NCBI RefSeq assembly: GCF_000374565.1
Contig: NZ_KB894694.1
Span: 62,001 to 126,000, forward strand
Reading direction: 5' to 3'
Source: Siminovitchia fordii DSM 16014 = CIP 108821
GTDB lineage: Bacteria; Bacillota; Bacilli; Bacillales; Bacillaceae_C
DNA length: 64,000 bases
Below are positions 34,484 to 64,000 of the stretch, piece after piece (position 1 is the first letter of the stretch; every line of letters starts with the position of its first letter). The translations under genes and the position numbers were made by a program. The notes under the pieces are model-generated. The model had not been told where the DNA came from. It did not search any database and saw only the letters and a program-made list of their open reading frames with translations.

Positions 34484-35836
34484 TCAACTTGTCATTCTAT
34501 CAGCCTCGTCCACACCAAGATCTGTTATATCCCTGTTAAAGATCTTGGACATGATAAGCATGTAAATGACCCCAATGATTACCCACACAATTCCTCCAAT
34601 GAATGCATCGGCATGCAAGTGCGCCCACAGAACCCCTGTAAAAGCGGCACCAAGAGTAGGCATGACAATATATGAGAATACTTGTTTTGGGGTTTGGTAT
34701 TGTTTCTTTTTAAATACAAAATATGCGATGACAGACAAGTTCACGAATGTGAACGCTATCAAAGCACCGAAGTTAATGACAGCAGAGATCAACTCAAGGC
34801 TTGGCCCCATCGCGAGCAGGCTGACAAGTCCCACGAAAATGACGTTAAAAAGCGGCGTTCTGAACCTCGGATGTACGTATCCAAAGAGTTTTTTCGGCAA
34901 GACACCGTTTCTGCCCATTACGAACAGAAGTCTGGAAACACTTGAGTGTGAAGCCAGTCCGGATGCTATGGTCGCTGCAAATGCTCCGGATAGGAAGATC
35001 AATTGAAATACGACGCCACCGACGTACAATGCGATCTCAGGGAGCGTATCATCGACGACATTGAATACCGAAACGTCAGGGAATAATGTTTGTGCAAAGT
35101 ACGCGCCAATGAAAAATACGGCTCCCCCGATAAGGACAGTGAATGCGATCGCTTTTGGCATTACATTAATATCCTTTGCCTCTTCCGTATACATGGTGAT
35201 CGCATCAAAACCGATAAATGAAAAACATACAACTGTTGCACCGGTTAACACGGCGGTTATATGCATATTCGCCTGGAACAATGGCTGAATGGTTAAAAGG
35301 GTCCCTGTACCCATTCCTTTATAGAGCTGGATTGACCCTAATACAACAAAAGCGGCCATTAAAACCAAAGTAAAGATAACTAAAATGACGTTGACTCCTG
35401 ATGTTGATTTCATGCTGAACGCGTTGATGGCTGTTACAAAGGCGACATAGATGAGCACCCAAATCCATGCAGAAGCATCAGGAAAAAGAGATTCCATGTA
35501 CAACCTGATTATGACAGCGTTTACAAGCGGCAGAAGTAAATAGTCAAGCAATGAAGCCCAGCCGACAAGGAATCCCAAACGGGGACCCATCGTTTCCCGT
35601 GTATATGTGTAAGCAGAGCCTGCACTTGGAAATACTTTTACCATCTTTCCATAACTGATTGCCGTAAAAAGCATAACAATCAAACCTACGACATATGCCA
35701 AGGGGACAAGTCCGCCTGTTTGTTTGGAAACGATTCCAAATGTATCGAATACAACCGTAGGTGTCATATAACCCAAACCTAATGCAACGATTGCCCATAA
35801 ACCTAGGGATCTTTTCAATGATGTGTTTGTCCCCAT
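34484..35836 (-). CDS. APC-family permease, PuuP-like
   Basis: A 450-residue transporter with about twelve membrane helices. The first helix region has GYMTPTVVFDTFGIVSKQTGG; further conserved stretches are GSAYTYTRETMGPRLGFLVGW, FSFIGFDAITMYTEEAKD and SRLLFVMGRNGVLPKKLFGY (the first two shown in part). This pattern resembles the putrescine importer PuuP group of amino acid/polyamine/organocation permeases. GAGGAGGG precedes the ATG. It is the last gene of a block gabD-like dehydrogenase, GNAT, permease, which supports polyamine or GABA as substrate. Confidence 0.8.
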   Translation of the reverse strand: MGTNTSLKRSLGLWAIVALGLGYMTPTVVFDTFGIVSKQTGGLVPLAYVVGLIVMLFTAISYGKMVKVFPSAGSAYTYTRETMGPRLGFLVGWASLLDYLLLPLVNAVIIRLYMESLFPDASAWIWVLIYVAFVTAINAFSMKSTSGVNVILVIFTLVLMAAFVVLGSIQLYKGMGTGTLLTIQPLFQANMHITAVLTGATVVCFSFIGFDAITMYTEEAKDINVMPKAIAFTVLIGGAVFFIGAYFAQTLFPDVSVFNVVDDTLPEIALYVGGVVFQLIFLSGAFAATIASGLASHSSVSRLLFVMGRNGVLPKKLFGYVHPRFRTPLFNVIFVGLVSLLAMGPSLELISAVINFGALIAFTFVNLSVIAYFVFKKKQYQTPKQVFSYIVMPTLGAAFTGVLWAHLHADAFIGGIVWVIIGVIYMLIMSKIFNRDITDLGVDEADRMTS

Positions 35837-35910
35837 GTAACACCCTCCTCTATTCCCGTTTCTACCTAGTTTATTTTACTCATTCCAAAAGTACTATATT
35901 TAGAGGATAG

Positions 35911-35945
35911 TATTTTCGGATTAACATAGAGCTAATCCGAAAATA
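35911..35945. other. intergenic hairpin between GNAT and permease genes
   Basis: TATTTTCGGATTA pairs perfectly with TAATCCGAAAATA around a nine-base loop. No T run follows on the minus strand, so it may be an mRNA processing or stability element, or a weak attenuator, rather than a full terminator. Confidence 0.6.
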
Positions 35946-35970
35946 TCCATCTATCATTTTTATTAAACGA

Positions 35971-36624
35971 TTACATCGGTTTATAATCCGGGTTTTTCCA
36001 CTCCATTAAAGCTGCGTATTTTAATGACTCTGCATCTGTCGGCAAATAGTTTGGCATGATTGCCCTGAATTCAAACCCGTTCTTCAATTGGAATGTCATG
36101 ACGGGATCATAGATTTCTCCGCTGACTACCTTTGCGGCATATTGTTCCGGAGTCAATTCATTTGCATGTTTATGATAGTTTGGAATACGCCCCCCGAAAA
36201 GGATGCTTTCCAAGTTAAATTCCTGTGCAATGGCCCTTCTGGCCTGATATAAACGCTTTCCAATTTTCAGTCCCCTGTATTCCGGGTGTACAACCACTTC
36301 TGTTCCATAAAGGTTTTTACCTTTTGGATTGTGGTTCTTTATATATCCATTATCTGAAATTTCATCGAAATCATGTTTTACGCCATACTCCTCAAAGTTT
36401 ACAATGACACTTGAACATGAACCTACGATATTTCCATCCTCATGTTCTATAACCACCTGGCCTTCAGGAAAAATTTCAATCTGACTGGCCAAATGCTCAG
36501 GCTTGAATGGAATGTTCGGATCCCCGAATCCGATGGCTGCCATCTCATTTACTTTATAGATGTCGTCTAAGGTCATTAATCTTGCTCCTGCTGCTTCTAT
36601 AGCTTTTTCGAACTGCGTTCCCAT
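35971..36624 (-). CDS. GNAT N-acyltransferase, stand-alone YhcX-type domain
   Basis: A 217-residue GNAT protein. The CoA-binding region is VVVHPEYRGLKIGKRLYQARR, and the distinctive later motifs GGRIPNYHKHANELTPEQYAA, YDPVMTFQLKNGFEF and LMEWKNPDY mark a subfamily shared with the genes at 47528 and the N-terminal half of 52733. GGAGG precedes the ATG. It lies between the dehydrogenase and permease genes under a sigma-54 promoter. The acceptor may be a polyamine or omega-amino acid; that is inferred from neighbours. Confidence 0.8.
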   Translation of the reverse strand: MGTQFEKAIEAAGARLMTLDDIYKVNEMAAIGFGDPNIPFKPEHLASQIEIFPEGQVVIEHEDGNIVGSCSSVIVNFEEYGVKHDFDEISDNGYIKNHNPKGKNLYGTEVVVHPEYRGLKIGKRLYQARRAIAQEFNLESILFGGRIPNYHKHANELTPEQYAAKVVSGEIYDPVMTFQLKNGFEFRAIMPNYLPTDAESLKYAALMEWKNPDYKPM

Positions 36625-36686
36625 AGACAGCCCCTCCTTTTTTAATGGGATTGTGCGTAAAATGATTTACGCACAATCCGTAATCT

Positions 36687-38108
36687 TTAATTTTCGTAAA
36701 TGGATACGAATTTTTCTTCCAAATACTCTTCCAGACCAAATTTTCCGCCCTCTTTACCCATTCCGCTCTCTTTGATACCGCCGAATGGAGCTTGAATGAC
36801 GATAGGAGCCGGATCGTTGATACCAATGATTCCAAACTCGAGTTCTTTCATCATTCTCAAGCCGCGGCCCAAGTCTTTTGTATAGCAATAAGCTGCAAGT
36901 CCGTATAATGTATTATTTGCTTTTTCAACGATTTCTTCTTCACTTTCAAACGTGAATACCGGTGCGATTGGACCGAATGTCTCTTCCGTCGCGATGACCA
37001 TGTCTTCTGTAGCATTTAAAATGACAGTCGGTTCGAAGAAATATCCGTTTCCTTTTTCGTAATTGAAAACGTTGCCTCCTGCAATAACTTCAGCGTTATG
37101 CTTCACGGCATCTGCCACTTGATTTTTCATTGTCTCAAGCGCCTTTTCGTTGATTAATGGCCCAACGTCCGTTCCCTCTTCCAATCCATCACCGATTTTC
37201 AGCTCTGCAGTACGTTTAGCAAGCTTTTCCGCAAATTCCTTGGCGATGCTTTTATGTGCATACACACGGTTCGTACTGATGCATGTTTGACCGGAGTTTT
37301 TGAATTTGGAAAGCATGACACCTTCAATCGCAAGGTCAATATCCGCATCTTCAAAAACGATGTAAGGAGCATGTCCGCCCAATTCCATCGACACTTTTTT
37401 CATTGTGTCCGCTGAGTCACGTACTAATTTTTTACCAATAAATGTAGATCCTGTGAATGTAAGTTTGCGCACATCCGTGCTGGATGTCAATTCTTTTCCG
37501 ATTTCTTCAGCAGGTCCGATAACAAGGTTTACAACGCCCTTTGGAAGTCCTGCTTCATGGAAGCATTCAAACACTTTGATGGCAGATAGTGGTGTCTGCA
37601 ATGCAGGTTTAAGGACAATTGTACAGCCTGCTGCAAGTGCTGGAGCGATTTTCCTTGTAATCATCGAAAGTGGGAAATTCCATGGTGTGATGGCTCCGCA
37701 GACTCCAACCGGCTGTTTGATGACCATCAGGCTTTTATCTTGGTGGGAAGCAGGAAGCACTTCGCCATAAATTCTTTTCGCTTCTTCCGCATACCAGTCA
37801 AGATAGCTGATTGCGCTGAGCACTTCTCTTTTTGCATCCGGAAGCGGTTTCCCATTTTCCAATGTAATAATCTGTGCTAGCTCGTCCACTCTTTCTTTCA
37901 TAAGCTTAACTGCTTTGAAGAGGTAGGCGCTTCTTTCATTACCTGTTGTTTTTTTCCAAGTCTTAAAAGCTTCTTTTGCTGCTGCAATCGCCGCTTTTGT
38001 TTCTTCTGCACCACAAACCGAGATAGTGTCAATCACTTCAAGCGTCGCCGGGTTCGTGACTTGCTCTTTTTGGTCTGATTCATGCCATTCTCCATTAATG
38101 TAATACAT
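36687..38108 (-). CDS. gabD: succinate-semialdehyde dehydrogenase-like aldehyde dehydrogenase
   Basis: A 473-residue NAD(P)-dependent aldehyde dehydrogenase. The pattern ITLENGKPLPDAKREVL followed by YLDWYAEEAKRIYGE is typical of GabD. The catalytic glutamate is in MELGGHAPYIVFEDADID and the nucleophilic cysteine in NSGQTCISTNRVY. GabD oxidises succinate semialdehyde to succinate, the last step of GABA and putrescine breakdown; related enzymes also accept 4-aminobutyraldehyde derivatives. It is first in an operon driven by the sigma-54 promoter at 38199-38214. Confidence 0.85.
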   Translation of the reverse strand: MYYINGEWHESDQKEQVTNPATLEVIDTISVCGAEETKAAIAAAKEAFKTWKKTTGNERSAYLFKAVKLMKERVDELAQIITLENGKPLPDAKREVLSAISYLDWYAEEAKRIYGEVLPASHQDKSLMVIKQPVGVCGAITPWNFPLSMITRKIAPALAAGCTIVLKPALQTPLSAIKVFECFHEAGLPKGVVNLVIGPAEEIGKELTSSTDVRKLTFTGSTFIGKKLVRDSADTMKKVSMELGGHAPYIVFEDADIDLAIEGVMLSKFKNSGQTCISTNRVYAHKSIAKEFAEKLAKRTAELKIGDGLEEGTDVGPLINEKALETMKNQVADAVKHNAEVIAGGNVFNYEKGNGYFFEPTVILNATEDMVIATEETFGPIAPVFTFESEEEIVEKANNTLYGLAAYCYTKDLGRGLRMMKELEFGIIGINDPAPIVIQAPFGGIKESGMGKEGGKFGLEEYLEEKFVSIYEN

Positions 38109-38198: not shown

Positions 38199-38214
38199 TG
38201 CAATAATCATGCCA
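38199..38214 (-). promoter_or_regulatory. sigma-54 promoter of the gabD operon
   Basis: On the minus strand TGGCATGATTATTGCA: GG and GC elements with exact ten-base separation, matching TGGCAC-N5-TTGCA at all but one position. It lies about 90 bases before the gabD start and just downstream of the sigma-54 activator gene. Confidence 0.88.
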
Positions 38215-38378: not shown

Positions 38379-40508
38379 TTAGCGGATTCCGACATTATCG
38401 CCTTCCCGTCTTTTATTCACAATTTTTTGGTATTTCCTACTAACAGAGGATTGGCTGATTCCGAGCGCCGTTGCCGCTCTCGTTGTAGTTTTATATATAT
38501 TCATCGCTTGGGTTATTAGCTGTTCCTCCACCGCTTCAAAAGCTTCCTGCAAAGGCATGATATTAGTAATGATCGGTTTAACCTTTGTCATCGGCTCATT
38601 TAATTTTAATACTTGCCCAACGACGCTGGCATCTATTATTTCATCATCAGCCGTTACAACCAACCGCTCGACAATGTTCTGCAATTCCCGAATATTTCCG
38701 GGCCAAGTGTATGCCTCCAGTAAATTGAGAGCATCAGGCGTTAAATGATAGTTGCTCTCATGCTGTTCATTAAATTGCTTCAAAAAATGAAAAGCAATCA
38801 GCGGAATGTCCTCGTGCCTTTCCCTTAATGGCGGGACATGAATAGGAATGACATTCAACCGGTAAAACAAATCCTCGCGAAACGCTCCTTCCGCCACCAT
38901 CTCCCTCAGATTCGTATTTGTCGCCGCTATTATTTGCACGTCAACAGAAAAAGTTTGAGTGCTTCCAATAGGAGCCACCTCCCTTTCCTGCAGGACACGA
39001 AGAAGTTTCACCTGGAGCCTGAGGGGCAGTTCCCCAATTTCATCAAGAAATAGAACTCCCTGATCAGCCTGTCTAAAATAACCATCTTTACCGCCAGGAT
39101 CGGCACCGGTGAAAGCGCCCTTCACATAACCGAAAAGCTCACTTTCAAGAAGCGCTTCGGGGATCGCTCCGCAATTCACTTTTAAAAACGGGCGCTCCTT
39201 ACGCCCCCCCAATTGATGAATGGCATGGGCGATCACTTCTTTCCCGACACCTGATTCCCCTTGGATCAGTACGGTTGATGAGAATTTAGCCACTTTATGA
39301 ATCTGTGCCACAATGTCTTCCATTTTCTGACTGCGGTAAATCAGCTTCCGGCTTAATTTTTCCTGCATCTTCATCTCATCAAGCTCTTGTTTGTACTGAG
39401 CGGAAATTTTCTTCATCTCGCGAAGCTCATCACGAAGACGGGTCGCTTCTGTAATATCACGAGAAGCCACGATGATTCTTTCAATTTCCCCATTTTCGTC
39501 AAGCACCGGATTTCCGACTGCCAAGACCTTTTTACCTGCCGGGGTTTCCTGTACTACAGAAACTTTTTTCTTTTTTTCTATGACAAGCCTTGTCACCGAA
39601 GGCATAAATCGCCCCTGCTTTTCAAGCTCCATAATATTTTTTCCGACCAGATCTTTCAGGTCCACTCCCCAGAATTCAGGAATGGCGTTTTCACTGTATC
39701 TGATCAATTCACCTTTTGGATTCACCACGAGGATTTCATCATAAATACTGGATAGGATAGCATTCAGATCCTTGTTCAAGTTTTTGACTGATTCAAGCTC
39801 CATTGCCATCTGCTCGACCATCGGGAGATCCTGAACAATGATAATGATTCCTTCCACATTTTTTTCGTCATTTACAATCGGGCTGTAATCGACAAGAATA
39901 CCGGACTCGTTGGTGACTTGTATCTGGTTTAATACGGTTTCCCCTGTCTGAAAAACATGCCTTAAATGACCGGCGTCAAAAATCGTTTCAGCCGGATAAT
40001 TTAAAACCTGTCCCACTTTGAGGCGGGTCATTTCCAAGGCAGATTCATTGCAATCGACTATCATTCCATGATTGTCAATAATGAAGATCCCCATCGGGAT
40101 GGACATAAGCAATACTTTCAGTATATTGGCATCTTCATTTTCCTGCCTGAAAAGCTCGACAATCAAATCTTCGCGAAGTACATACCCTGTTATTGAACCG
40201 CTTTCATTTTTAATTAAAGATAGTTCTTTTCCTAGCACCTGGAAGATTGAAGAAAAAGATAGGTTTTCGGACAGTGTACTCAACTCGGTAACCGGCATGG
40301 CATAACGTCGGATTTGTTCTAGCTCCCCATCTTCGCGTTCACTCACCGGAAGATCTTTTAAATAAATATAGGAAGTCACCTTTCCGCCTTCCTCCAAAAA
40401 TATAAACCGGTTCTTTTTATCAGACAAAAGTGCGCGCCATTCTTTCTGAGGCTGATCAACAGAAAGCTTGACTAATGATTGAATAATATCTTTCGATATT
40501 AAAAACAC
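38379..40508 (-). CDS. sigma-54-dependent transcriptional activator with PAS domains
   Basis: A 709-residue enhancer-binding protein. Residues 1-130 form a CBS- or PAS-like input region, then two PAS domains (about 130-225 and 240-355, the second with a coiled linker). The AAA+ domain has Walker A GESGVGKE, the sigma-54 contact loop GAFTGA, Walker B VLFLDEIGEL and arginine finger segment FREDLFYRLNVIPI. A Fis-type helix-turn-helix at the end reads AATALGISQSSVSRKY. GTG at 40508 follows GGGGGAG. It is divergent from potABC and upstream of gabD, both with -24/-12 promoters, so it very likely activates them in response to a small ligand. Confidence 0.9.
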   Translation of the reverse strand: MFLISKDIIQSLVKLSVDQPQKEWRALLSDKKNRFIFLEEGGKVTSYIYLKDLPVSEREDGELEQIRRYAMPVTELSTLSENLSFSSIFQVLGKELSLIKNESGSITGYVLREDLIVELFRQENEDANILKVLLMSIPMGIFIIDNHGMIVDCNESALEMTRLKVGQVLNYPAETIFDAGHLRHVFQTGETVLNQIQVTNESGILVDYSPIVNDEKNVEGIIIIVQDLPMVEQMAMELESVKNLNKDLNAILSSIYDEILVVNPKGELIRYSENAIPEFWGVDLKDLVGKNIMELEKQGRFMPSVTRLVIEKKKKVSVVQETPAGKKVLAVGNPVLDENGEIERIIVASRDITEATRLRDELREMKKISAQYKQELDEMKMQEKLSRKLIYRSQKMEDIVAQIHKVAKFSSTVLIQGESGVGKEVIAHAIHQLGGRKERPFLKVNCGAIPEALLESELFGYVKGAFTGADPGGKDGYFRQADQGVLFLDEIGELPLRLQVKLLRVLQEREVAPIGSTQTFSVDVQIIAATNTNLREMVAEGAFREDLFYRLNVIPIHVPPLRERHEDIPLIAFHFLKQFNEQHESNYHLTPDALNLLEAYTWPGNIRELQNIVERLVVTADDEIIDASVVGQVLKLNEPMTKVKPIITNIMPLQEAFEAVEEQLITQAMNIYKTTTRAATALGISQSSVSRKYQKIVNKRREGDNVGIR

Positions 40509-40786: not shown

Positions 40787-40802
40787 TGGCACATAACTTG
40801 CA
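40787..40802 (+). promoter_or_regulatory. sigma-54 promoter of the pot operon
   Basis: TGGCACATAACTTGCA matches the TGGCAC-N5-TTGCA consensus at every position. It lies 75 bases before the potA start and is divergent from the activator gene. Confidence 0.93.
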
Positions 40803-40877: not shown

Positions 40878-41948
40878 TTGAGTGAACTAATGGTGAAATT
40901 GAACAATGTCGTCAAAAGCTTCGATGACAATGTTGTAGTAAAAAATATTAACATGGACATCAAGGCCGGGGAGTTTCTCACCCTTTTGGGGCCTTCAGGG
41001 TGCGGAAAGACTACAACTCTTCGGATGATTGCCGGATTTGAACAGCCGACTGACGGTGAAGTCATTATAGATGGGAAAGAAGTAAGCAATATCCCTCCAC
41101 ACAAGCGGGATGTTAACACAGTTTTCCAAAGTTACGCCTTATTCCCTCATATGAATGTAACTGATAATGTAGCTTTTGGTCTTAAAATGAAGAAAGTGGA
41201 CAAGGATGATATTAAGCGCCGCGTAATGGAAGCGCTTAAATTAGTTCAACTGGAAAGTTTCGCCGAGCGTAAACCCGACCAGCTCAGCGGAGGACAAAAA
41301 CAACGTGTCGCCATAGCCCGTGCTCTGGTAAACAGTCCAAAAGTACTACTCCTAGACGAGCCGCTTGGAGCGTTGGACTTAAAACTCCGAAAACAAATGC
41401 AGGTTGAATTGAAACATTTACAACAGAAACTCGGTATCACCTTTATCTATGTTACACATGATCAAGAGGAAGCCCTGACCATGTCTGACCGGATTGCTGT
41501 CATGAATGGGGGAATCATTGAACAACTTGGATCACCAGATGAAATATACGAGCGCCCTGCGTCACGCTTTGTTGCAGATTTCATTGGTGAAACGAACTTG
41601 TTTGAGGGCAAGGTTGTTGAGTTGGATGAAAAGCATGCGTATCTCGATCTTTCAGGTCACAAAATACCGATCGTTCCTACAAATCCAGTATCTCTGGATG
41701 AAGAAGTTTCAATGGCCATCCGTCCAGAAAGGATACACCTTCACAATGAAACGAACGGATCCGATTTTGCCATTCCAGGAAAAGTCGTTGAACATATTTA
41801 TGTAGGCTCTGTCATCAAAACTGTCGTTTCCCTTCCCGGCGGCTATCAAGTCACAGTCAACGAAACCCCAGAAGTGGCTCATTCCTTCAACGTTGATCAA
41901 GACGTATATGTAAACTGGGAGCCTGACAAGGCGGTGATCATTGCATGA
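40878..41948 (+). CDS. potA: polyamine ABC transporter ATP-binding protein PotA
   Basis: A 356-residue ATPase of the spermidine/putrescine importer type. Walker A is [12 protein letters not shown], signature [15 protein letters not shown], Walker [12 protein letters not shown] and switch histidine in THDQEEAL; the final 120 residues form the TOBE regulatory domain. TTG at 40878 is the start, with AAAGGAG upstream. Its stop overlaps potB by four bases. It powers uptake through PotBC with one or more of the PotD-type receptors nearby. Confidence 0.92.
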
Positions 41949-42862
41949 TGGAGACCAATATTGCACCAGGAGATAAAGCAACTGCAGTATCAAAGAAAAG
42001 GAAGCGTCAGAGCGGAAGGTTATTCGGAATGGCGTGGACACTATCGCCTGTTACTTTTTGGCTTGTACTGTTTTTTATATTTCCGCTTCTTTTTATCTTG
42101 CTGATCAGTTTTGCCACAAGGGGACTGTATGGAGGTGTGGAATACACCTTTACGTTTGAAAACTATACCCGTTTTTTTGATCCCCTTTATTTGAAAATCT
42201 TATGGGATTCCCTGGTCATAGCAGGTTTTACAACTATTTTATGCCTGGTCTTCGGCTATCCTTTTGCTTATATCATTGCAAGATCGCCGAAGAAATACCG
42301 CGCATTTTTGATTATGCTTGTCATGGTCCCATTCTGGACAAATTCACTTGTCAGGACATATGCATGGATTGTACTTTTACGCACAGAAGGGGTCATTAAT
42401 ATCATCTTAATGAAGATAGGCATTATTTCCGAGCCCCTTGCCATGCTGTATAACCACGGAGCTGTAATGGTAGGATTGACATACACACTGTTTCCGTTCA
42501 TGGTATTGCCGCTTTATGCTTCCATTGAACAATTGGATAAATCACTGCTGGAGGCATCCAGTGACTTAGGTGCGAAACCTTGGCAAACGTTTACAAGGAT
42601 AACTCTTCCTCTCACAATGCCGGGAGTAGTTGCTGGAGCCCTGCTTACATTCATCCCTACCCTCGGATTGTTCTTCATTCCGGATTTAATGGGAGGGTCC
42701 AAATCTCTCTTGATCGGAAACCTGATTAAAAACCAGTTCCTAACAGCAAGAGATTGGCCGTTCGGATCTGCAGCATCCATGATTTTAATGGTGCTTACAT
42801 TAATTTTCATCCTTATTTACTTAAGGATCGGCGGCAATAAAAAAGGACTCGAGGTGTTGTAG
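41945..42862 (+). CDS. potB: polyamine ABC transporter permease PotB
   Basis: A 305-residue permease with six membrane helices and a basic N-terminus (VSKKRKRQSGR). The coupling loop is LEASSDLGAKPWQTFTRITLP, shown here in part as EASSDLGAKPW, typical of PotB. It overlaps potA and is followed directly by potC. Confidence 0.9.
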   Translation: MMETNIAPGDKATAVSKKRKRQSGRLFGMAWTLSPVTFWLVLFFIFPLLFILLISFATRGLYGGVEYTFTFENYTRFFDPLYLKILWDSLVIAGFTTILCLVFGYPFAYIIARSPKKYRAFLIMLVMVPFWTNSLVRTYAWIVLLRTEGVINIILMKIGIISEPLAMLYNHGAVMVGLTYTLFPFMVLPLYASIEQLDKSLLEASSDLGAKPWQTFTRITLPLTMPGVVAGALLTFIPTLGLFFIPDLMGGSKSLLIGNLIKNQFLTARDWPFGSAASMILMVLTLIFILIYLRIGGNKKGLEVL

Positions 42863-45970: not shown

Positions 45971-45973
45971 TCC

Positions 45974-51191: not shown

Positions 51192-51253
51192 TCGCATTTC
51201 CCCCTTGAAGCACTTTTGTTTTTGTAACATTAGTTAAAATTCAATAGTAGGCA

Positions 51254-55601: not shown

Positions 55602-56879
55602 TTAGGAAATATAATCCAAAAATTTAAAGTAATACTTCATCATCCCCAACCCAGTTGCGTTCATGCCGTGAAACGGGATGGGTTTCAGATTTGAACGGTC
55701 AAGAGGGTTGTTTTTATCCCCTTCATTTAGCATATTCATGGCCACTATTTTACCTAAAAGAGTGGACATTGCAGCTCCATGCCCTGCATATCCGAAAGCG
55801 AAATGGGTACCGTCATCCAACTGGCCGATATAAGGGATTTTTTCAATAGTAAACCCTACTTTCCCACTCCATTTGTAATCCACCCTTGCATCTTTTAATG
55901 CCGGGAAGACATCAACCATACCTGCTTGTAAATTTTCGAAAAGCTTTTTGGCATCCCGCTTGCTAGTCGTACGGCCCGAGCCCCCAAATACCATTCGGTT
56001 GTCTGCGGAAAGCCTGAAATAATACAGTAAGTTTTTCGTATCACAGGCTGCACGGTTATGCTTCATCAGTTCCTTGCATAACTCTTCCGGAAGTACCTCT
56101 GTCGCAAGAACAATGCTTTCTACAGGAACAATTGCTTTCTTTATCAGCTTGTGGACATCTGTCGTATAAGCGTTTACGAACATTCCGACCTGCTTGGCTA
56201 TGACACGGCCATTATTCGTCTCTACAATCACTCTATCATGAGATTCACGTTTAATGTTAATCGCTTCCGAATGTTCATAGATGGTTCCGCCGTTTTTTTC
56301 CACCACGTTTGCCAAACCGAGACAATAATTCAACGGATGGAAAATGGCACTTTTTTCATCGATATGGGCCCCGTGGTAAAAATCGGAGTCCATTTCAGAA
56401 TGCATTTCTTGTTTTTCTACAATCTTTGTTTCAAAGTTATAGTTTTTATATAAAAATTCCTGTTCACGCCTCATTCCATCCAAATGTGATGGTTTGTAGG
56501 CTGCCAGCAAATTTCCGTTCCGGAAAAAGTCACACTGGATGCCTTCCTCTTGAATGATATTTTCAATCAGATCGATGCTGTCCAATGACATTTGAAACAT
56601 CTGCCTTGCGGCGTCACTGCCGTATTTTCCGGCCAGTGCCTGCATCGACATAACATATCCTATCAATACTTCCCCACCGTTTCTTCCGCTTGCGCCGGAT
56701 CCCACAGTGTTGGCTTCCAAGACTACAGTTTTTACATTCCTTTGCTGCAGATGATAAGCAACGGAAAGTCCGGTGAAGCCTCCACCTATGATGACAACGT
56801 CACATGTTTCCTCACCTTGCTGGACAGGTCTTCTCTTCATTTCATTTGCTGTTGCTTGCCACAAAGATTTGCCGCTCAT
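55602..56879 (-). CDS. FAD-dependent amine oxidase, PuuB-like
   Basis: A 425-residue flavoprotein of the DAO family. The dinucleotide-binding motif is VVIIGGGFTGLSVAYHL with the acidic residue in TVVLEANTVGSGASGRNGG. FGGSGRTT and the C-terminal GYAGHGAAMSTLLGKI are conserved. In this group, PuuB oxidises gamma-glutamylputrescine; OrdL-like members act on other secondary or acylated amines. It follows a PotD-type receptor gene by 40 bases and precedes the C45 gene. No PuuA-type ligase lies in the window. Confidence 0.82.
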   Translation of the reverse strand: MSGKSLWQATANEMKRRPVQQGEETCDVVIIGGGFTGLSVAYHLQQRNVKTVVLEANTVGSGASGRNGGEVLIGYVMSMQALAGKYGSDAARQMFQMSLDSIDLIENIIQEEGIQCDFFRNGNLLAAYKPSHLDGMRREQEFLYKNYNFETKIVEKQEMHSEMDSDFYHGAHIDEKSAIFHPLNYCLGLANVVEKNGGTIYEHSEAINIKRESHDRVIVETNNGRVIAKQVGMFVNAYTTDVHKLIKKAIVPVESIVLATEVLPEELCKELMKHNRAACDTKNLLYYFRLSADNRMVFGGSGRTTSKRDAKKLFENLQAGMVDVFPALKDARVDYKWSGKVGFTIEKIPYIGQLDDGTHFAFGYAGHGAAMSTLLGKIVAMNMLNEGDKNNPLDRSNLKPIPFHGMNATGLGMMKYYFKFLDYIS

Positions 56880-56919: not shown

Positions 56920-57966
56920 TTACTGTTTGACCTCAGACCATGCACGGTCATAATACTTGATTGCCTCCCCGACATCCGTTGCATGAACACCTCTGTTAAA
57001 GTCTTCATCTGTCAATTCCAGTTCCTGCCGAATATCCTCAGAAAGTAATTCAAGCGCCGCTTTATTCGGGTTATGATATGGGTAATCCATTGTTATTTCT
57101 TTACTTATTTCAGGTTGAAGAATAAAGTTGATAAATTTTTCTGCATTTTCTTTGTGCGGTGCATCTTTCGGAATGACAAAGTTATCTTGCCACAAGCTAA
57201 GATGGTCTTCAGGAATGACCATTTTGATGCTTGGATTTTCTCTCATCGCCAGCGCCGCCTCAGCCCCGTAGACGACACCAGCTTTCACTTCTCCACTGAC
57301 AAGCAGATTTTTCGGGCTGTCACTGTCGAATGCCTTTATATTCGGCATAAGCTTTTTCAATTCCTCCCCAGCCTTCATGATTTCATCTTCATTTGTGCTG
57401 TTTACGGAATATCCGAGCATCTCTAGCGCAGCACCAAGCATTGTACGAGGGTCATCAACCACGACAAGTCCATCTTTTAACTTTGGATTGAATAAATCTT
57501 TGTAACTCTTTATTTCAAAGTCTACCAAGTCCTCATTGTATGCAATGATTTCTGTACCCCACATGTACGGTACAGAGTATTCATCATCAGGATCAAAATC
57601 CCACCCCATAAATTTTTCATCGATATTTTTCAAGTTTGGTATATTATCTTTGTTGATTTTCTCCAGCTGGCCTTCTTTTATCAACACTTCAACAAAATAA
57701 GTGGAAGGTACGGCTAAATCATAGGTTGCATTCCCCACATTTAGCTTCGCCACAAGTTCTTCGTTGGAAGAAATTGTACTGTAATTTACTTTGATTCCTG
57801 TCTCTTCTTCAAATTGCTTGATCAACTCTTCCGGCAGATATTCAGACCAGTTTAGAATATTGACCACATTTTCATCCTGGCTACCGGCTCCGCTGCCTCC
57901 ACAACCAGCAACAAGCAAAACAATCGCCAATGCTGAAACAAGCAAACTGAACTTTTTGAATCTCAT
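56920..57966 (-). CDS. potD: polyamine-binding lipoprotein, PotD type (5)
   Basis: A 348-residue binding protein with lipobox LLVAGC and mature start VVNILNWSEYLPEELIKQF. VNYSTISSNEELVAKLN, PYMWGTEIIAYNEDLV, LVVVDDPRTMLGA and NIKAFDSDSPKNLLVSGEV are clear. ATG 57966 is used, nine bases past AAAGGAG. It is part of the nhaC operon with the FAD oxidase and C45 genes, which suggests a specific substrate for that set. Confidence 0.87.
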   Translation of the reverse strand: MRFKKFSLLVSALAIVLLVAGCGGSGAGSQDENVVNILNWSEYLPEELIKQFEEETGIKVNYSTISSNEELVAKLNVGNATYDLAVPSTYFVEVLIKEGQLEKINKDNIPNLKNIDEKFMGWDFDPDDEYSVPYMWGTEIIAYNEDLVDFEIKSYKDLFNPKLKDGLVVVDDPRTMLGAALEMLGYSVNSTNEDEIMKAGEELKKLMPNIKAFDSDSPKNLLVSGEVKAGVVYGAEAALAMRENPSIKMVIPEDHLSLWQDNFVIPKDAPHKENAEKFINFILQPEISKEITMDYPYHNPNKAALELLSEDIRQELELTDEDFNRGVHATDVGEAIKYYDRAWSEVKQ

Positions 57967-58046
57967 TTTGGACATTCTCCTTTAGATGTTAAAAATTAAA
58001 AAGATCGATTCTGGACATTAAAGGATGGTTTCTGATTCGGTTGACC

Positions 58047-58387: not shown

Positions 58388-58421
58388 CATGCAGCAGTTA
58401 ACACCGTTAACCGACTGCATG
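58388..58421 (-). other. hairpin at the 3' end of nhaC
   Basis: CATGCAG...GTTAAC pairs with GTTAAC...CTGCATG around a three-base loop, with a small internal mismatch. The nhaC stop codon lies inside. No T run follows on the minus strand, so read-through into the mini-protein and binding protein genes is likely. Confidence 0.4.
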
Positions 58422-59846
58422 CTGATCTTTTTTACTTTGGGCTTTTGCAGCCACTTCATTCTTATACTCTATTTTAAATCCCGTCATCCCATAAATAATG
58501 GATATGATGGGACTAATCAAACATAGAAACGCAAAAGGCAAATAGCTGAGTGTAGCTACCCCAAGTGTAGTAGCCATGAACGCTCCACACGTATTCCATG
58601 GAACAAGCGGTGAAGTCATTGTACCCGCATCCTCCAAGGTACGGGACAAGTTTTTGGCCTTTAATCCGCGTTTTTCATACTCGGCAGCGTACATCCGTCC
58701 TGGAACAATGATAGACAGGTATTGGTCACATCCGACAATATTTGCAGAGATACACGTTGCGACAGTAGTTGCAATCAGGCTTCCGGTTTTTTTGGCAAGC
58801 TTCAAAATGCCCTGGACAATCGCTTCAAAAATTCCTGTCTTTTCCAGAACCCCTCCAAAGCACATGGCAATGACGATTAACGAAACCGTATACAAAACGG
58901 ATTCAATGCCTCCATTGTTCAATAGATTGTCCACAATTTCAATCCCCGTGTCGATGGAATACCCATAGTATAGAATGCTGATGGCGTCTCCAACAGGAAC
59001 CTTCTGAACCACAATGGCACAAAATGCTCCAAGCAGAGAACCGATAGTCAATCCTGGGAGAGCAGGGATTTTAAAGATCATCATAATGATAATGAATGTT
59101 GGGACCAACAATAACCACGGTGATATGGTAAAAATTTCTCCAAGCTGGGACTGAAGAAGTTTTACTTCTGAGATTTCAGACCCCTGCCCAGCAAATTTAA
59201 TTCCCATCACTGCATAAATGATCAACGCAATTACGAGAGCAGGTATGGTCGTATAAAGCATGTGTTTGATATGTTCAAACAATTCAACCCCGACAATTCC
59301 CGGAGCCAAGTTCGTTGTTTCGGAAAGCGGTGAAATTTTATCCCCGAAATATACGCCTGAAATGACAGCCCCCGCCACCATAGCCGGATTCATGCCAAGA
59401 CCATGTCCAATTCCCATGATTGCGATCCCTATCGTTCCTGCTGCAGTCCAGGCATTCCCTGAAGCGATAGAAACGATACAGGAAATGGCACAGGCGGCAA
59501 CTAGGAAATATCCGGGCGCTAGTATATCCAAACCGTAATAAATCATTGTTGGAACAATTCCCCCGGCTATCCAGGAGCCGATGATCGCACCGATCACCAT
59601 CAGGATGACAATTGCTTGGAGTGCCATCCGAACCGCGTCCAGCATACCTTCTTCGATTTCTTTCCATTTATACCCCAGTCTTAGAGCTACAATTGCAGCA
59701 ACCCCTGCACTAAGAAGAAGCGGAATATGAGGATCTGCGTCATATATGAATATCCCCGTAAAAAGGGCAATCATCATAAACCCAATTGGAATTAAAGCCA
59801 CAAGTAATGTAGGTTTTTTTATATCTTGCCGTTGTTCTTTTGTCAA
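58407..59846 (-). CDS. NhaC-family Na+/H+ antiporter
   Basis: A 479-residue membrane protein with about twelve helices. Conserved NhaC stretches are GNAWTAAGTIGIAIMGIG, GAVISGVYFGDKISPLSETTNL (in part), ANIVGCDQYLSIIVPGRMY and LVPWNTCGAFMATTLGV. The family includes sodium/proton antiporters and also amino acid or organic acid exchangers. TTG 59846 is used because AGGAGG lies ten bases before it; the longest frame would start inside the sigma-54 promoter. It leads a five-gene operon, so it might export a catabolic product or maintain ion balance during amine uptake. Confidence 0.85.
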   Translation of the reverse strand: MTKEQRQDIKKPTLLVALIPIGFMMIALFTGIFIYDADPHIPLLLSAGVAAIVALRLGYKWKEIEEGMLDAVRMALQAIVILMVIGAIIGSWIAGGIVPTMIYYGLDILAPGYFLVAACAISCIVSIASGNAWTAAGTIGIAIMGIGHGLGMNPAMVAGAVISGVYFGDKISPLSETTNLAPGIVGVELFEHIKHMLYTTIPALVIALIIYAVMGIKFAGQGSEISEVKLLQSQLGEIFTISPWLLLVPTFIIIMMIFKIPALPGLTIGSLLGAFCAIVVQKVPVGDAISILYYGYSIDTGIEIVDNLLNNGGIESVLYTVSLIVIAMCFGGVLEKTGIFEAIVQGILKLAKKTGSLIATTVATCISANIVGCDQYLSIIVPGRMYAAEYEKRGLKAKNLSRTLEDAGTMTSPLVPWNTCGAFMATTLGVATLSYLPFAFLCLISPIISIIYGMTGFKIEYKNEVAAKAQSKKDQHAVG

Positions 59847-59889
59847 AATTATGTAACCTCCTGGTGGAAAAAGCGTTATCATATACCCT

Positions 59890-59905
59890 TGCAATATTTA
59901 TGCCA
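59890..59905 (-). promoter_or_regulatory. sigma-54 promoter of the nhaC operon
   Basis: On the minus strand TGGCATAAATATTGCA: -24 GG and -12 GC with exact spacing, one mismatch to TGGCAC-N5-TTGCA. It is 44 bases before the TTG start at 59846, leaving a short leader. Confidence 0.88.
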
Positions 59906-60083: not shown

Positions 60084-61463
60084 TCATAGCCTTCTGATCA
60101 CCTTGTCATAGGCTTCCAGAGTTTTATCAATTTCTTCTTGCCCATGGGCACTTGAAATGCTGTATCTGTTCAGCGGTTTTGTATAAATCCCCTCATTTAT
60201 TAATTGAAAATCCAATTCTCTCCTTAATGAAAAGTCAGCATTTTGCAAGTCACGGTAATTTAATATTTTGTCTTTTTCAGTGAGAATCAGATTGAAGATA
60301 GAACCCAGGCCCAATGTCTTTACTGCAATCCCTTTCTGTAAAAAAAGCTTGCTGATCCCTTTTTTCAACGTTTCGGCTGCCTCATTGATTTGGTTGATCT
60401 CTTCTTCCAAAACTGCAATTGTTTCAAGTCCTGCTGCCAAAATGGACGGATGTCCATTATATGTCCCGCTATGGAAAAGCACATCCCTTGCATCGGAATG
60501 TTTGCTTTGGCTGTTGTCAAATACGTCTGAAGCAGCTTTTGGAAGACTTACCTCCATAATATCCCTTCTGCCCCCTGTAATTCCAATCGGGTATCCCCCG
60601 CCAACCGCCTTGCCAAGTGCAGTCAGATCCGGTTTTATATTATAATACTGTTGCGCACCGCCGAGCCCCAATCTAAAGCAAGTTTTGACTTCATCAAAAA
60701 TCAGCAGAATATCTAATTCCTTCGTCAATTCCCTAAGGCCTTCTATGAAACTTCTCTCAGCCGGAATGAATCCTCCCTGAACCGGCTCCACAATAACCGC
60801 AGCAAGCTCACCTTGTCTTTTTCGCAAAATGGCCGAGGCCGCATCTATATCATTAAACGGCAAAACAATCGTATGTTCTTCATGATAATCGTCCATTCCT
60901 TTGGACTCAGCTATCGACTTTGGATGGAGTGGGTGCCCGGCTTTTTCTACTGGCGGATTGACACTTACAAGAACCTGGTCATATCCGCCGTGATAGTGGC
61001 CTTCAAACTTAGCGATTTTATTTTTTCCTGTGTAGGCATATGCCATGCGAATGGCAAGCAAAGTCGCTTCCGTTCCGGAATTTGTATAGCGCAGGAGCTC
61101 GATGCTTGGATAAAGCTGTTGAATTTTCTTCCCCATCTCGACTTCGAGCCGATGCGGGGTTCCGAATAAATAGGTGCCATTTTCATATAATTGCTTTTGT
61201 ACCGCCTGCAGGACCCTGGGATGTCCGTGTCCAAGAATCAATGCTCCATAGGATAGCAGATAATCTATATATTCGTTTCCATCCAAATCATACAGGCGAC
61301 TTCCCATTCCCTTTTCCATAATGATTGGGTAAGGAGGGAAAAATTTAATATTGGCAGTTGTACCACCCGGCATGACTTTTGCGGCCTCCATATAAAACTC
61401 CAGCGACTTCGGGGTTTTTTCTACAAAATGTTTGATCCCCATTCCTTTTTCACTGATTGCCAC
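60084..61463 (-). CDS. class III aminotransferase, glutamate-1-semialdehyde aminomutase-like
   Basis: A 459-residue PLP enzyme. The opening PGGTTANIKFFPPYP, GHGHPRVLQAVQ, NSGTEATLLAIRMAYAYTG, FDEVKTCFRLGLGG and the PLP lysine in LGKAVGGGYPIG are class III features, closest in style to the HemL-like branch. A haem role is unlikely since no hem genes are near; an omega-amine or GABA-type aminotransferase fits the cluster. GTG 61463 follows AAAGAGGTG. It is divergent from the nitrilase and RpiR genes. Confidence 0.8.
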   Translation of the reverse strand: MAISEKGMGIKHFVEKTPKSLEFYMEAAKVMPGGTTANIKFFPPYPIIMEKGMGSRLYDLDGNEYIDYLLSYGALILGHGHPRVLQAVQKQLYENGTYLFGTPHRLEVEMGKKIQQLYPSIELLRYTNSGTEATLLAIRMAYAYTGKNKIAKFEGHYHGGYDQVLVSVNPPVEKAGHPLHPKSIAESKGMDDYHEEHTIVLPFNDIDAASAILRKRQGELAAVIVEPVQGGFIPAERSFIEGLRELTKELDILLIFDEVKTCFRLGLGGAQQYYNIKPDLTALGKAVGGGYPIGITGGRRDIMEVSLPKAASDVFDNSQSKHSDARDVLFHSGTYNGHPSILAAGLETIAVLEEEINQINEAAETLKKGISKLFLQKGIAVKTLGLGSIFNLILTEKDKILNYRDLQNADFSLRRELDFQLINEGIYTKPLNRYSISSAHGQEEIDKTLEAYDKVIRRL

Positions 61464-61529: not shown

Positions 61530-61648
61530 TATACACTAAAATTGCCCCCTTAAAAAATAATTTTCTTTTTTTAATGAAAATGTAATAAATATTGCATAAA
61601 TGTGATAAAAGTAATATCTTAAATAGAAAAGCACAGGATGTGTTAAAT

Positions 61649-62419
61649 TTGTCTATTCTGGCTGCTGCCATCCAAATGCACTCCAAACCAAACCAGCCGC
61701 AGGAAAATCTGAACACCGCCGTTAAGATGATTAAACATGCTGCAGCCCAAGGGGCTCAGATCATAGTTCTGCCGGAACTTTGGAAAAGCGGATATCATTT
61801 ATCAAAAGGGGAATTTGAGCTTTTGGCCGAAGAACGGGAAGGACCTGTGATTTCACAGTTTCAAAGGCTTGCACCCGAATTGGGAGTGGTATTGGTCATA
61901 CCTTTTATTGAAAAAGAAGATAAAAGCCTCTATATATCCACCGCTGTTATTGAGAAATCCGGAGAGCTGCTGGCTTGTTACAGAAAATCTTTTTTATGGG
62001 GAAGGGAAAAGGACATCTTTTCTCCTGGAGAAAGAAAATACGAAGCTATCCAAACATCAACCGGAAAAATCGGGTTATTGATTTGCTATGACATGGAATT
62101 TCCCGAACCAAGCCGACACTTGGCACTGCAGGGAGTCCAGTTGATTATCGCACCATCGGTTTGGAGCATATCCGCAGAACCAAGATGGGATATCCAACTC
62201 CCTGCCCGAGCCCTTGATAACACTGTGTTCGTTTTGGGTGTAAATACCGTATTTGAAGGAAGCTGCGGGAAAAGCAAACTGATTGCCCCTGACGGAAAAA
62301 CATTGATTCAAGCACCCAAGGACAAACCATTTATTTTGATCCATGAGGTGAATTTTCATTTGATTGAGGAAACAAGAAAGAGGATCCCTTATCTGGAAGA
62401 CCTCATAGGACAACGTTAG
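61649..62419 (+). CDS. nitrilase-family carbon-nitrogen hydrolase
   Basis: A 256-residue amidase. The full catalytic triad is visible: glutamate in IIVLPELWKSG, lysine in CYRKSFLWG and cysteine in LLICYDMEFPE. Such enzymes hydrolyse omega-amides, N-carbamoyl amines or deaminated glutathione. TTG 61649 is preferred as start (MSILAAAIQMHSKPNQPQEN, in the usual family position); the frame is open further upstream to 61592, but without homology. It is followed after 16 bases by the RpiR regulator gene, and the pair is divergent from the aminotransferase. Confidence 0.82.
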   Translation: MSILAAAIQMHSKPNQPQENLNTAVKMIKHAAAQGAQIIVLPELWKSGYHLSKGEFELLAEEREGPVISQFQRLAPELGVVLVIPFIEKEDKSLYISTAVIEKSGELLACYRKSFLWGREKDIFSPGERKYEAIQTSTGKIGLLICYDMEFPEPSRHLALQGVQLIIAPSVWSISAEPRWDIQLPARALDNTVFVLGVNTVFEGSCGKSKLIAPDGKTLIQAPKDKPFILIHEVNFHLIEETRKRIPYLEDLIGQR

Positions 62420-62435
62420 TTAAAGGATGAATGAG

Positions 62436-63305
62436 ATGAAAAATGATAATATTTATAACCTGATTGCTGAAAAAATACCTGAAATGAGCAAATCTCATAA
62501 AAAAATTGCCAGTTTTATTTTAAACAATACAAATGTCGTCCCTTTTTTAAACGTGGCTACTTTGGCGAAAAAAGCCGGTGTGAGTGAAGCGACTGTAGTT
62601 CGGTTCGCTTCCTTTCTCGGATACTCGGGTTATCCTGAGTTGCAGTCCAGGATGCAGAATTCAATTCAGAAGCAGTTGACCACAACGGAAAGGCTAAAGA
62701 TGACAACAGATGTCTATGATGATCGGGACCAATGGATATATGACATTTTTTACGGCGATGTGGAAAATATCAAGTCGACTATTGAAAAATTGGACATAGA
62801 AAAATTCCATCAAGCTGTTGGTCTATTGCAGAATGCGGATAGAATATATATCGCAGCAAACCGGAGCGCTGCGTCGTTGGGGATTTTCCTTCAATATTAT
62901 TTAAACATCATTCTAGGACATGCAGAGATGGTCCGCTCTATCGAAAACCTTTCCGAGCAACTATATAACCTTAATGAAAAAGACGTGGTCATCGGAATCA
63001 GCTTTCCACGTTATACGAATAGCACGATCCAGACAATCACCTTTGCGAAGGAAAGAGGTTCAAAGACCATTTGTATCACGGATAGTTTGCTTTCACCCTT
63101 GATCCCTTATGCTGATGTAGCTCTAACTGCAACGAGCCAGATGCCGACATTCATTGATTCATTTACTGCTCCACTTAGCCTGATCAATGCGCTTGTGGTA
63201 TGTATCGGAAAAGGGCGCATGAAAGAGGCCGAATCCCGCCTCGAGAAAATAGAAGCTGCCTGGGACCGTTTCGGTGTTTTTCACAAAAACGATTTTGCCG
63301 AATAA
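62436..63305 (+). CDS. MurR/RpiR-family transcriptional regulator
   Basis: A 289-residue regulator. The N-terminal RpiR helix-turn-helix has KKIASFILNNTNVVPFLNV and KKAGVSEATVVRFASFLGYSG; the C-terminal SIS domain spans about residues 125-265 (IYIAANRSAASLGIFLQYY, VVIGISFPRYTNSTIQ). SIS domains usually sense phosphosugars, but members next to amine or purine catabolic genes are known. ATG 62436 is used; the ATG at 62427 touches its ribosome binding site AAAGG. It probably controls the nitrilase and the divergent aminotransferase. Confidence 0.85.
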   Translation: MKNDNIYNLIAEKIPEMSKSHKKIASFILNNTNVVPFLNVATLAKKAGVSEATVVRFASFLGYSGYPELQSRMQNSIQKQLTTTERLKMTTDVYDDRDQWIYDIFYGDVENIKSTIEKLDIEKFHQAVGLLQNADRIYIAANRSAASLGIFLQYYLNIILGHAEMVRSIENLSEQLYNLNEKDVVIGISFPRYTNSTIQTITFAKERGSKTICITDSLLSPLIPYADVALTATSQMPTFIDSFTAPLSLINALVVCIGKGRMKEAESRLEKIEAAWDRFGVFHKNDFAE

Positions 63306-63380
63306 ATTTATTTATAGGGTTTATACCCTAGACAGCGATTTCGTTTGATGCATTGATGCACCTTTTCCGCTAAACTCTAA

Positions 63381-63409
63381 CAACATGTCCGCCGGAGCAG
63401 GACATGTTG
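63381..63409. other. hairpin downstream of the RpiR gene
   Basis: CAACATGTCC pairs with GGACATGTTG around a nine-base loop. There is no T run after it; the proper terminator appears to be the next hairpin. Confidence 0.5.
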
Positions 63410-63442
63410 CATGATCATTCGAATAAAAGTTCGTTTTTAAAA

Positions 63443-63482
63443 TAAGAAAAGAACAGGGTTTGGTATCCCTGTTCTTTTCTTA
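63443..63482. terminator. bidirectional hairpin terminator
   Basis: TAAGAAAAGAACAGGG pairs perfectly with CCCTGTTCTTTTCTTA around an eight-base loop, between the RpiR gene and the convergent amidohydrolase gene. Confidence 0.88.
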
Positions 63483-63483
63483 C

Positions 63484-64000
63484 TTATTGATTAACCGGTG
63501 ATCCGGAGTCTTCATAAACGACGTCCCCGTCAGCGATTGTAAGCTCCACTCCCGTGGTCGGAATATCCTCTACAGGTATGTCAAAAATATTTTGTTTCAA
63601 TACAACAATATCAGCGAGCTTGCCTGGTTCTAGTGTGCCAAGCTCGTCTTCCCTGAAAGTTCCATACGCCGAACCGGATGTATAAGCTTTCAACGCTTCG
63701 GATAGTGTAATCCGTTCTTGGGGATGCCATACATCCTTTCCACTGCTGTCAATCCTTGTGACCGCACGGTAAATTTGCAAAAGAGGGTTAAGGGAATCGA
63801 TAGGAAAATCGGTGCCGAACGCTGTGTTTGCTCCGGTTTTCATTAACGTGTTAATTAAAAAGACGTATTTTTCCCGTTCATCTCCAATTCGATCTGTATA
63901 GACTCCCCGTTCAGACATCGCGAAATGGTCAGGCTGCATCGAAACAGTAACTCCAAGCTCTTTAAAACGATGGATATCATCAGGATGAATCACTTCTGTG
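63484..64000 (-). CDS. YtcJ-like amidohydrolase, C-terminal part (cut by window end)
   Basis: The frame is open to the right edge, so the gene continues outside. The visible 172 or so residues contain EVIHPDDIHRFKELGVTVSMQ, TAFGTDFPIDSLNPLLQIYRA and LGTLEPGKLADIVVLKQN (shown in part), matching the C-terminal third of the amidohydrolase at 49572-51191. The Asp in GTDFP is the expected metal/catalytic residue. A second member of this family in the same region suggests a related substrate. Confidence 0.82.
   Translation of the reverse strand, partial: TEVIHPDDIHRFKELGVTVSMQPDHFAMSERGVYTDRIGDEREKYVFLINTLMKTGANTAFGTDFPIDSLNPLLQIYRAVTRIDSSGKDVWHPQERITLSEALKAYTSGSAYGTFREDELGTLEPGKLADIVVLKQNIFDIPVEDIPTTGVELTIADGDVVYEDSGSPVNQ

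Follow-up and report, generated by a model that had tools for sequence, protein, structure and literature searches.

The closest described system to the one reported here is the Puu pathway of Escherichia coli, in which import by PuuP, oxidation by the FAD (flavin adenine dinucleotide) oxidase PuuB and by an aldehyde dehydrogenase, and release by an amide hydrolase take place around a glutamate cap, with subsequent catabolism of GABA (4-aminobutyrate). Putrescine can also be protected by acetylation. In this route, known as 'putrescine degradation III', N-acetylputrescine is converted to 4-acetamidobutyrate and further to GABA. The bacterial acetylation pathway of polyamines is the subject of a review (PMC9397018, accessible part), and the accessible part of another paper (PMC4784309) describes amidohydrolases of Pseudomonas aeruginosa that deacetylate acetylputrescine. 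In the present study 64,000 nucleotides of the 4.5 Mb genome of Siminovitchia fordii DSM 16014 = CIP 108821 were analysed (contig NZ_KB894694.1, positions 62,001 to 126,000; G000:C10:62001-126000 in our numbering, where L stands for loci and C for contigs). This whole stretch is called the window. It contains genes that could form a sigma-54-controlled module for diamine or polyamine catabolism, in which an acyl cap would be put on by a GNAT acyltransferase and taken off by an enzyme of the C45 family, and we give this reading a probability of about 0.52. PuuP-like import, a PuuB-like oxidase, an aldehyde dehydrogenase, an amide hydrolase and, in some genomes, GABA catabolism are shared with the Puu pathway, whereas GNAT and C45 would replace PuuA and PuuD, the activator is sigma-54-dependent and the dehydrogenase is of GabD type. 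The proposed logic of the acyl cap is the same as in the acetylation route of putrescine. A literature search for this gene set, which covered few of the subscription journals, found no paper on it.

Results

Gene content and order

The central group of the module lies on the minus strand (59894-47528). It begins with an NhaC-type antiporter (58407..59894; TIGR00931, 517 bits, cut-off 370), a recurrent transporter of the module whose listed TTG start probably lies 5' of the true one, and it continues with the fifth PotD-like receptor (56920..57975) and a PuuB-like FAD amine oxidase (55602..56879; DAO domain, 33% identity to E. coli PuuB over 402 aa). Next come the C45 autoproteolytic amidohydrolase/acyltransferase, the proposed deacylase (54499..55581; NF040521, 273 bits, cut-off 85), a GNAT fused to a nitrilase domain (52733..54340) and the fourth PotD-like receptor (51544..52620; both of these receptors were assigned by family match and contact positions). 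The group ends with an amidohydrolase of the Amidohydro_3 family (49572..51230; PF07969, 343 bits), the second PuuP-like APC permease (48214..49557; 47.2% identity to E. coli PuuP) and GNAT2 (47528..48199). A second minus-strand group (38108-34484) consists of a GabD-like aldehyde dehydrogenase with an altered substrate pocket (36687..38108; TIGR01780, 623 bits, cut-off 646), the stand-alone GNAT1 of the module subfamily (35971..36624; Pfam Acetyltransf_1; model with a predicted local distance difference test score, pLDDT, of 93.6) and the first PuuP-like APC permease (34484..35836; 48.7% identity to E. coli PuuP). A PrdR-like sigma-54-dependent activator with PAS and Sigma54_activat domains is on the same strand (38379..40508; NF041552, 445 bits, cut-off 795). 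On the plus strand (40878-47175) lie the ABC transporter genes potA, potB and potC (40878..43636), with PotA and PotC above their NCBIfam cut-offs and PotB at 338 against 348 bits, and three PotD-like receptors (43735-44835, 44783-45970 and 46072-47175; NCBIfam PotD 271-287 bits, under the cut-off of 582).

All the genes on which an earlier sequence-only reading had built a polyamine island are present, namely PotABC with five receptors, two permeases, oxidase, dehydrogenase, aminotransferase, GNATs, C45 and nitrilases, and, as it had stated, no PuuA or PuuD was found among the proteins of the region scanned by family. Two of its descriptions had to be amended. The three GNATs exist, with one of them fused to a nitrilase in which the catalytic Cys is Gly, and the C45 gene is one of three in the window, the other two being upstream of the part that had been described.

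Conservation across genomes

One scan of named genomes with a C45 alignment gave 79 C45 loci, some of them cut by contig ends and several from close relatives. The 43 loci with a C45 of 54% identity or more are called module loci; 35 other C45 loci served as comparison, and L076 belongs to neither group. Gene labels are best BLAST matches to the window proteins, to eight proteins of L042, L048 and L049 and to eight E. coli proteins, and neighbours in the 43 loci were counted within 10 kb of C45. It was found that a GNAT is near C45 in 39 of the 43 loci (all except L045, L062, L065 and L074), the module dehydrogenase in 28 and a deaminating enzyme in 34 (missing in L045, L056, L061, L062, L067, L069, L070, L072 and L074); all three are present in 24. 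The deaminating enzymes, which overlap, are the oxidase (20 loci), a SpuC-like aminotransferase (21) and a PatA-like aminotransferase (7). When the ten loci of Siminovitchia and its close kin are set aside, the counts are 30/33 for GNAT, 25/33 for the dehydrogenase, 29/33 for deaminases and 24/33 for all three. In the Siminovitchia loci, the window among them, the dehydrogenase is further from C45. Other genes near C45 are Pot (19/43), NhaC (20/43) and the PrdR-like activator (15/43). The oxidase occurs mainly with PotABCD and the aminotransferase mainly with NhaC and the activator, and some loci have both. PuuA or PuuD was the best match at E 1e-20 in none of the 43 loci.

The module is found in genera that include Lentibacillus, Oceanobacillus, Halobacillus, Thalassobacillus, Evansella, Geomicrobium, Alteribacillus and Fredinandcohnia, and also outside Bacillaceae, in Melghirimyces. 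Because the gene arrangement recurs in other genera, it is not a matter of chance. Among 299 genomes of the order, C45 (E 1e-40) is present in 12, the oxidase (E 1e-80) in 11 and both in 9 (Fisher p 2.5e-13, uncorrected for kinship), with the two genes on different contigs in two of the nine.

Sigma-54 type promoters

The window has four exact matches to the -24/-12 pattern. Shuffled sequences have a mean of 0.20, and none of 100 shuffles reached four. Three of the sites are at starts of module operons: one about 90 bp 5' of the dehydrogenase start codon (38199..38214, minus strand), one about 75 bp 5' of the listed start of potA (40787..40802, plus strand) and one at the 5' end of the NhaC gene (59890..59905, minus strand). 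The fourth is inside the oxidase gene on the opposite strand and is probably a chance match. With one mismatch allowed the window count is 8 against 5.55 expected, which is not unusual. The 43 module loci cover 889 kb, for which the uniform expectation is 1.7 exact sites; they have 62, spread over 33 loci, and the 35 other C45 loci have 5 in 722 kb. In the module loci 47 of the 62 sites fall at most 400 bp upstream of, or at most 200 bp inside, the frame of a labelled gene, and 15 are unplaced. The placed sites belong to the SpuC-like aminotransferase (17), NhaC (9), BADH-like (betaine aldehyde dehydrogenase-like) genes and PatA (6), PotA (5), PotD (4), Amidohydro_3 (3), GNAT (2) and C45 (1). 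The site at the NhaC start is also present in L037-L040, L044, L049, L050, L057 and L060. Exact sites at module operons fit the PrdR-like activator, and since they stand at transporters, deaminases and the C45-dehydrogenase-GNAT genes, a single putative regulon is suggested.

C45 and the fused nitrilase

The Asp-Gly-Cys-Thr motif of C45, presumably autocleaved at the Gly-Cys site, is invariant in 11 of 11 aligned rows, and the window enzyme is 90-92% identical to those of Siminovitchia fortis, S. terrae and Bacillus norwichensis. Nitrilase-type hydrolases had been proposed along with C45 to take the acyl group off. In the fused nitrilase domain the nucleophile is lost in all 24 module fusions, that of the window included (Gly400), with Cys replaced by Gly in 17 and by Ser in 7; Glu and Lys are mostly kept (Lys to Gln in 4, Glu to Asp in 1). 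This loss rules out the fused nitrilase as a deacylase of the usual mechanism. A fused nitrilase with no nucleophile and an invariant C45 Cys together leave C45 as the likely deacylase, and it is the best candidate from its sequence, the Amidohydro_3 enzyme being the second (13 of the 43 loci have it, at 45% identity or more, in the vicinity of C45). A predicted two-domain model of the GNAT-nitrilase (mean pLDDT 76.6) was set aside.

Fusions of this architecture are also common outside the module, and their GNAT-nitrilase proteins are 55-58% identical to the module fusions. In genomes with no C45 the Glu-Lys-Cys triad is intact in 25 of 25 fusions and Cys is lost in none, whereas every module fusion has lost it. 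These 25 are the best-scoring ones from genomes with no C45 at E 1e-40 (30 loci were fetched, the other five being module fusions), and they are a small part of all GNAT-nitrilase matches in the order. Such a match (E 1e-40) exists in 228 of the 299 genomes, about 200 of them at full-length E-values; 28 genomes, counted by eye, have weak best matches only (E 1e-54 to 1e-100) that may come from a GNAT with no nitrilase. Intact-triad fusions (L130-L154) are very common in the order, and by name we take them to be YhcX of Bacillus. The accessible part of PMC4558970 treats YhcX as a putative nitrilase that modestly affects how much indole acetic acid is formed. In the genome of S. fordii itself no second GNAT-nitrilase fusion was found; the other GNATs stand alone, as does a nitrilase-type gene. 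The 43 module loci comprise 22 with a fusion and 17 with stand-alone GNATs only. As judged from these residues, the nitrilase function is lost within the modules and the GNAT is retained.

It should be considered that C45 might itself be the acylating enzyme, like penicillin acyltransferase, with the Amidohydro_3 enzyme taking the acyl group off. The nearest solved structure to C45 is indeed an acyltransferase (2x1d), and the NCBIfam family is named acyltransferase/hydrolase. But Amidohydro_3 is found in only 13 of the 43 loci, while GNAT, the more usual acyl-CoA-dependent enzyme, is found in 39, and we regard this exchange of roles as quite improbable. Arg310, which we take to bind the carboxylate in penicillin acyltransferase (position counted on the alignment), was tried as a marker for C45 and dropped, its aligned position not being conserved.

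The GNAT subfamily

The GNAT domain of the fusion is 53% identical to GNAT1, and GNAT2 is a divergent member of the subfamily with only 33%. The module GNAT profile matches CurA and SxtA at E 4e-16 and GphF at 4e-6. With the predicted model of GNAT1, Foldseek gave the GNAT-like domains of GphF, SxtA and CurA as the best solved folds (first five at E 1e-13 to 1e-12, the next at 1e-8). By profile and predicted fold, the module GNAT belongs with these GNAT-like decarboxylase domains. The decarboxylase dyad of CurA is Thr355/His389 (PMC3701320, accessible part). All 24 module rows have Gly or Ala in place of Thr355 and Gln or Leu in place of His389; the positions were counted by hand on the alignment, and the count also gives the correct residues for Arg387, Arg404 and Tyr419. 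The CurA, GphF and SxtA domains are the best matches in both sequence and fold, but the module GNAT has no Thr/His dyad. A role as malonyl-CoA decarboxylase by the CurA mechanism agrees with the fold and was rejected on the absent dyad; it is kept as ancestry only. In a tree of GNAT domains, made without the open reading frames of 12 loci that are near-copies, the intact fusions form one group (support 100/99), the module forms do not form one group, and several branches are long.

Dehydrogenase and transport

The module dehydrogenase is 51% identical to E. coli GabD and falls just below the cut-off for succinate semialdehyde dehydrogenase (SSADH). The carboxylate of succinate semialdehyde is bound by Arg213, Arg334 and Ser498 in human numbering (PMC11681614, accessible part). 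Among 26 module dehydrogenases the Ser498 equivalent is kept in none and the Arg334 equivalent in five, while E. coli GabD and four GabD-like neighbours retain both; in the stretch taken to correspond to Arg213, nearly all module enzymes show no change. In the window enzyme Arg is replaced by Lys and Ser by Ile. The 26 are the window enzyme and those of L036-L114 that align over more than 400 residues with an identity of 53% or above; L047:4311-5855 (54%, above the SSADH cut-off) was left out by hand, and L067, L070 and L072 by the length filter. An uncharged capped aldehyde would fit such a pocket, as would other carboxylate-free aldehydes.

The five receptors of the window were compared with PotD and PotF at the contact positions. 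We take Trp34, Tyr37, Tyr85, Asp168, Glu171, Trp229, Trp255, Asp257, Tyr293 and Gln327 to be the polyamine contacts of PotD. Trp34, Tyr37, Tyr85, Asp168, Asp257 and Tyr293 are retained in all five, Trp229 in three (Tyr in two) and Gln327 in none.

Genes adjoining the module

GABA transaminase is above the TIGR00700 cut-off in three of three loci tested (L047, L054 and L059), and L050 has a GabT-like gene by similarity. For SSADH, L047 and L050 exceed the cut-off and L057 misses it by 1 bit. In L042 methylmalonate-semialdehyde dehydrogenase (MMSDH), an aminotransferase of the PRK07678 subfamily and alanine dehydrogenase are all above cut-off, and by similarity L052 has the same trio, which we take to be beta-alanine catabolism. 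Alanine dehydrogenase is found in 10 of the 43 loci, as expected from pyruvate-dependent transamination. Putrescine aminotransferase was tested in two loci, L048 and L065; in both it scores above the NF008570 cut-off and falls short of TIGR03372, the second model. Five further loci have homologues. Agmatine deiminase is above cut-off in L048, where an AguB-like protein has 325 bits (cut-off 410), with homologues in L051 and L055. The SpuC-like aminotransferase beside C45 matches PRK07480 best among the NCBIfam models, with a score below cut-off; its best solved relatives are amine transaminases, 6fyq first and 6gwi, named putrescine aminotransferase, third. Judged by these families, the neighbourhood points to small diamines and omega-amino acids.

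In seven loci (L043, L048, L051, L055, L065, L071 and L078) a PatA-like aminotransferase and a BADH-like dehydrogenase lie beside the module. They are what would be expected if the amine pathway were an ordinary uncapped one and GNAT and C45 had some other purpose beside it, for example in protein acylation, in detoxification or in the turnover of signals, and the unexplained catalytic residues of GNAT agree with this as well. But GNAT and C45 are the most constant pair (39/43, C45 being present by selection), while oxidase and aminotransferase alternate, so that an uncapped pathway is in our opinion unlikely.

Another explanation is that the substrates are foreign amides, such as N-acyl polyamines, phenolic amides or peptide-like conjugates, which are imported and oxidised at the free amine; C45 or Amidohydro_3 would then free the acid, and GNAT would serve detoxification or recapping. 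Within the window, as in L061, L062, L067, L069, L070 and L072, C45 is accompanied by Opp-type genes, and the Amidohydro_3 gene near C45 in 13 loci fits the same idea. Distant Amidohydro_3 proteins also pair with a C45 of about 47-50% identity in L080-L088, L090-L094, L096 and L099, where no module GNAT was found. However, a purely hydrolytic scheme has no need of the GNAT found in 39 of 43 loci, and the Pot and NhaC carriers, PatA and AguA suggest free small amines. We consider import of foreign amides doubtful, though it deserves attention.

The Opp-type ABC transporter cassette of the window (21846..31664, minus strand) contains the two further C45 genes (26616-27713 and 23452-24558), which are 58-59% identical to the C45 at 54499..55581, and a similar order is seen in L062, L069, L070 and L072. 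Over 21846-34345 the cassette with its two C45 genes and two solute-binding proteins adjoins a two-component system. L061 has an Opp set immediately beside C45, the module dehydrogenase and GNAT. Twelve comparison loci (L080, L082-L084, L086, L088, L090, L091, L094, L096, L099 and L100) have a C45 of about 45-50% and an Amidohydro_3 of about 30% identity with MMSDH and aminotransferase genes nearby, six of them also with alanine dehydrogenase; possibly these carry out beta-alanine amide breakdown with no GNAT.

Further genes lie towards the end of the window. The class III aminotransferase (60084..61463, minus strand), which had been counted as a pathway step, is HemL-like, and high-identity copies were seen only in the close relatives L036-L039. 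It was rejected as the GABA transaminase of the module on this distribution and on its glutamate-1-semialdehyde aminomutase-like family. It is followed by a stand-alone nitrilase-type amidase that keeps its Cys and has Glu and Lys motifs (61592..62419, plus strand; PF00795; AguB-like 132 bits, cut-off 410), an RpiR-type regulator found by family scan (62427..63305, plus strand) and a second Amidohydro_3 amidohydrolase (63484..63999, minus strand), of which the window has only a part and which continues beyond it (L022:1484-3136).

Possible other amine routes in the same genome

A PuuA/PuuD pathway elsewhere in the genome would offer another explanation for growth on polyamines. A PF00120 search of the genome gave four proteins. 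Two ligases on contig C14 reach 369 and 415 bits with GGputSyn (cut-off 650); their identity to PuuA is only 26%, against 29-31% for the other two, and a PuuD-like C26 gene (31% identity) is on contig C12, away from the ligases. This explanation is weak; the C14 cluster looks like a different amine or glutarate route. At L023 (G000:C14:68000-86000) it contains the glutarate dioxygenase GlaH, a sigma-54-type activator, the two GGputSyn-like ligases, a class III aminotransferase, a glutamine amidotransferase and hydrolase-like genes, and it is a candidate for another capped-amine route. Further oxidase paralogues are on C17, C23 (two) and C29. The C23 locus (L171:8151-16673, G000:C23) has Pot-like genes, genes that look sarcosine-oxidase-like by eye, a module-type GNAT and the two PuuB-like paralogues, with no C45 within the 20 kb taken. 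The oxidase paralogues and the C23 set could serve the same or other amines.

Discussion

The present study suggests how a diamine or polyamine could be degraded behind an acyl cap. Uptake would be by PotABC with several receptors, by PuuP-like permeases or by the NhaC-type carrier. The module GNAT would cap one amine with an acyl group from acyl-CoA, and the PuuB-like oxidase would take away the free amine, a step that in other genomes would fall to an amine aminotransferase, as their families suggest. The SSADH-derived dehydrogenase, whose pocket has no carboxylate-binding serine, could then oxidise the capped amino-aldehyde, and C45 may hydrolyse the N-acyl omega-amino acid to GABA or beta-alanine, which adjoining genes would finish off in some genomes. 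The cap would prevent cyclisation of the amino-aldehyde, as glutamate does in the Puu pathway.

The sequence-only reading had taken these genes as one pathway. That they form one functional unit is well supported by conserved linkage and shared sigma-54 type promoters, and the roles it assigned, namely import, deamination, aldehyde oxidation, an omega-amino acid product and GNAT with C45 as acyl handlers, find support at the level of sequence. Acyl protection remains the best reading that we can offer, with the cap taken off by C45 and not by the nitrilase. The possibility of a PuuA/PuuD pathway elsewhere, which that reading had named as grounds for giving it up, was borne out only weakly: ligases exist on C14, below their cut-off, and the C26 gene on C12 stands apart from them. 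A fuller version can be put forward tentatively, at somewhat less than even odds: an acyl-CoA-dependent GNAT of the CurA clade with no decarboxylase dyad, in many genomes on a dead-nitrilase fusion, caps the diamine and C45, an Ntn-hydrolase, uncaps it, all within one sigma-54 regulon of Bacillaceae that serves both C4 (GABA) and C3 (beta-alanine) products.

Several observations weigh against acyl protection. The dehydrogenase is not within 10 kb of C45 in 15 of the 43 loci, and L045 and L074 have no module at all. Opp genes replace Pot and NhaC in L061, L062, L067, L069, L070 and L072; this, together with the two module-less loci, means that C45 may act on imported amides. Where the PatA-like and BADH-like enzymes provide a direct uncapped route for putrescine, the acyl route would be redundant. 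Among the receptors, PotD Glu171 is replaced in all five and Trp255 in two. The nearest solved relatives of the GNAT are decarboxylase-type domains, and we know of no activity for this GNAT clade. Lastly, besides the two ligases on C14 that resemble GGputSyn, S. fordii itself has four other paralogues of the oxidase.

Acyl protection by GNAT and C45 is directly testable, as the genes form a compact, co-regulated set with a candidate for each step. If true, the module fusions would be a clear case of a fused enzyme domain that is retained after the loss of its nucleophile. Bacterial C45 enzymes would also gain a metabolic role, as would a GNAT clade that is known from the loading of polyketides.

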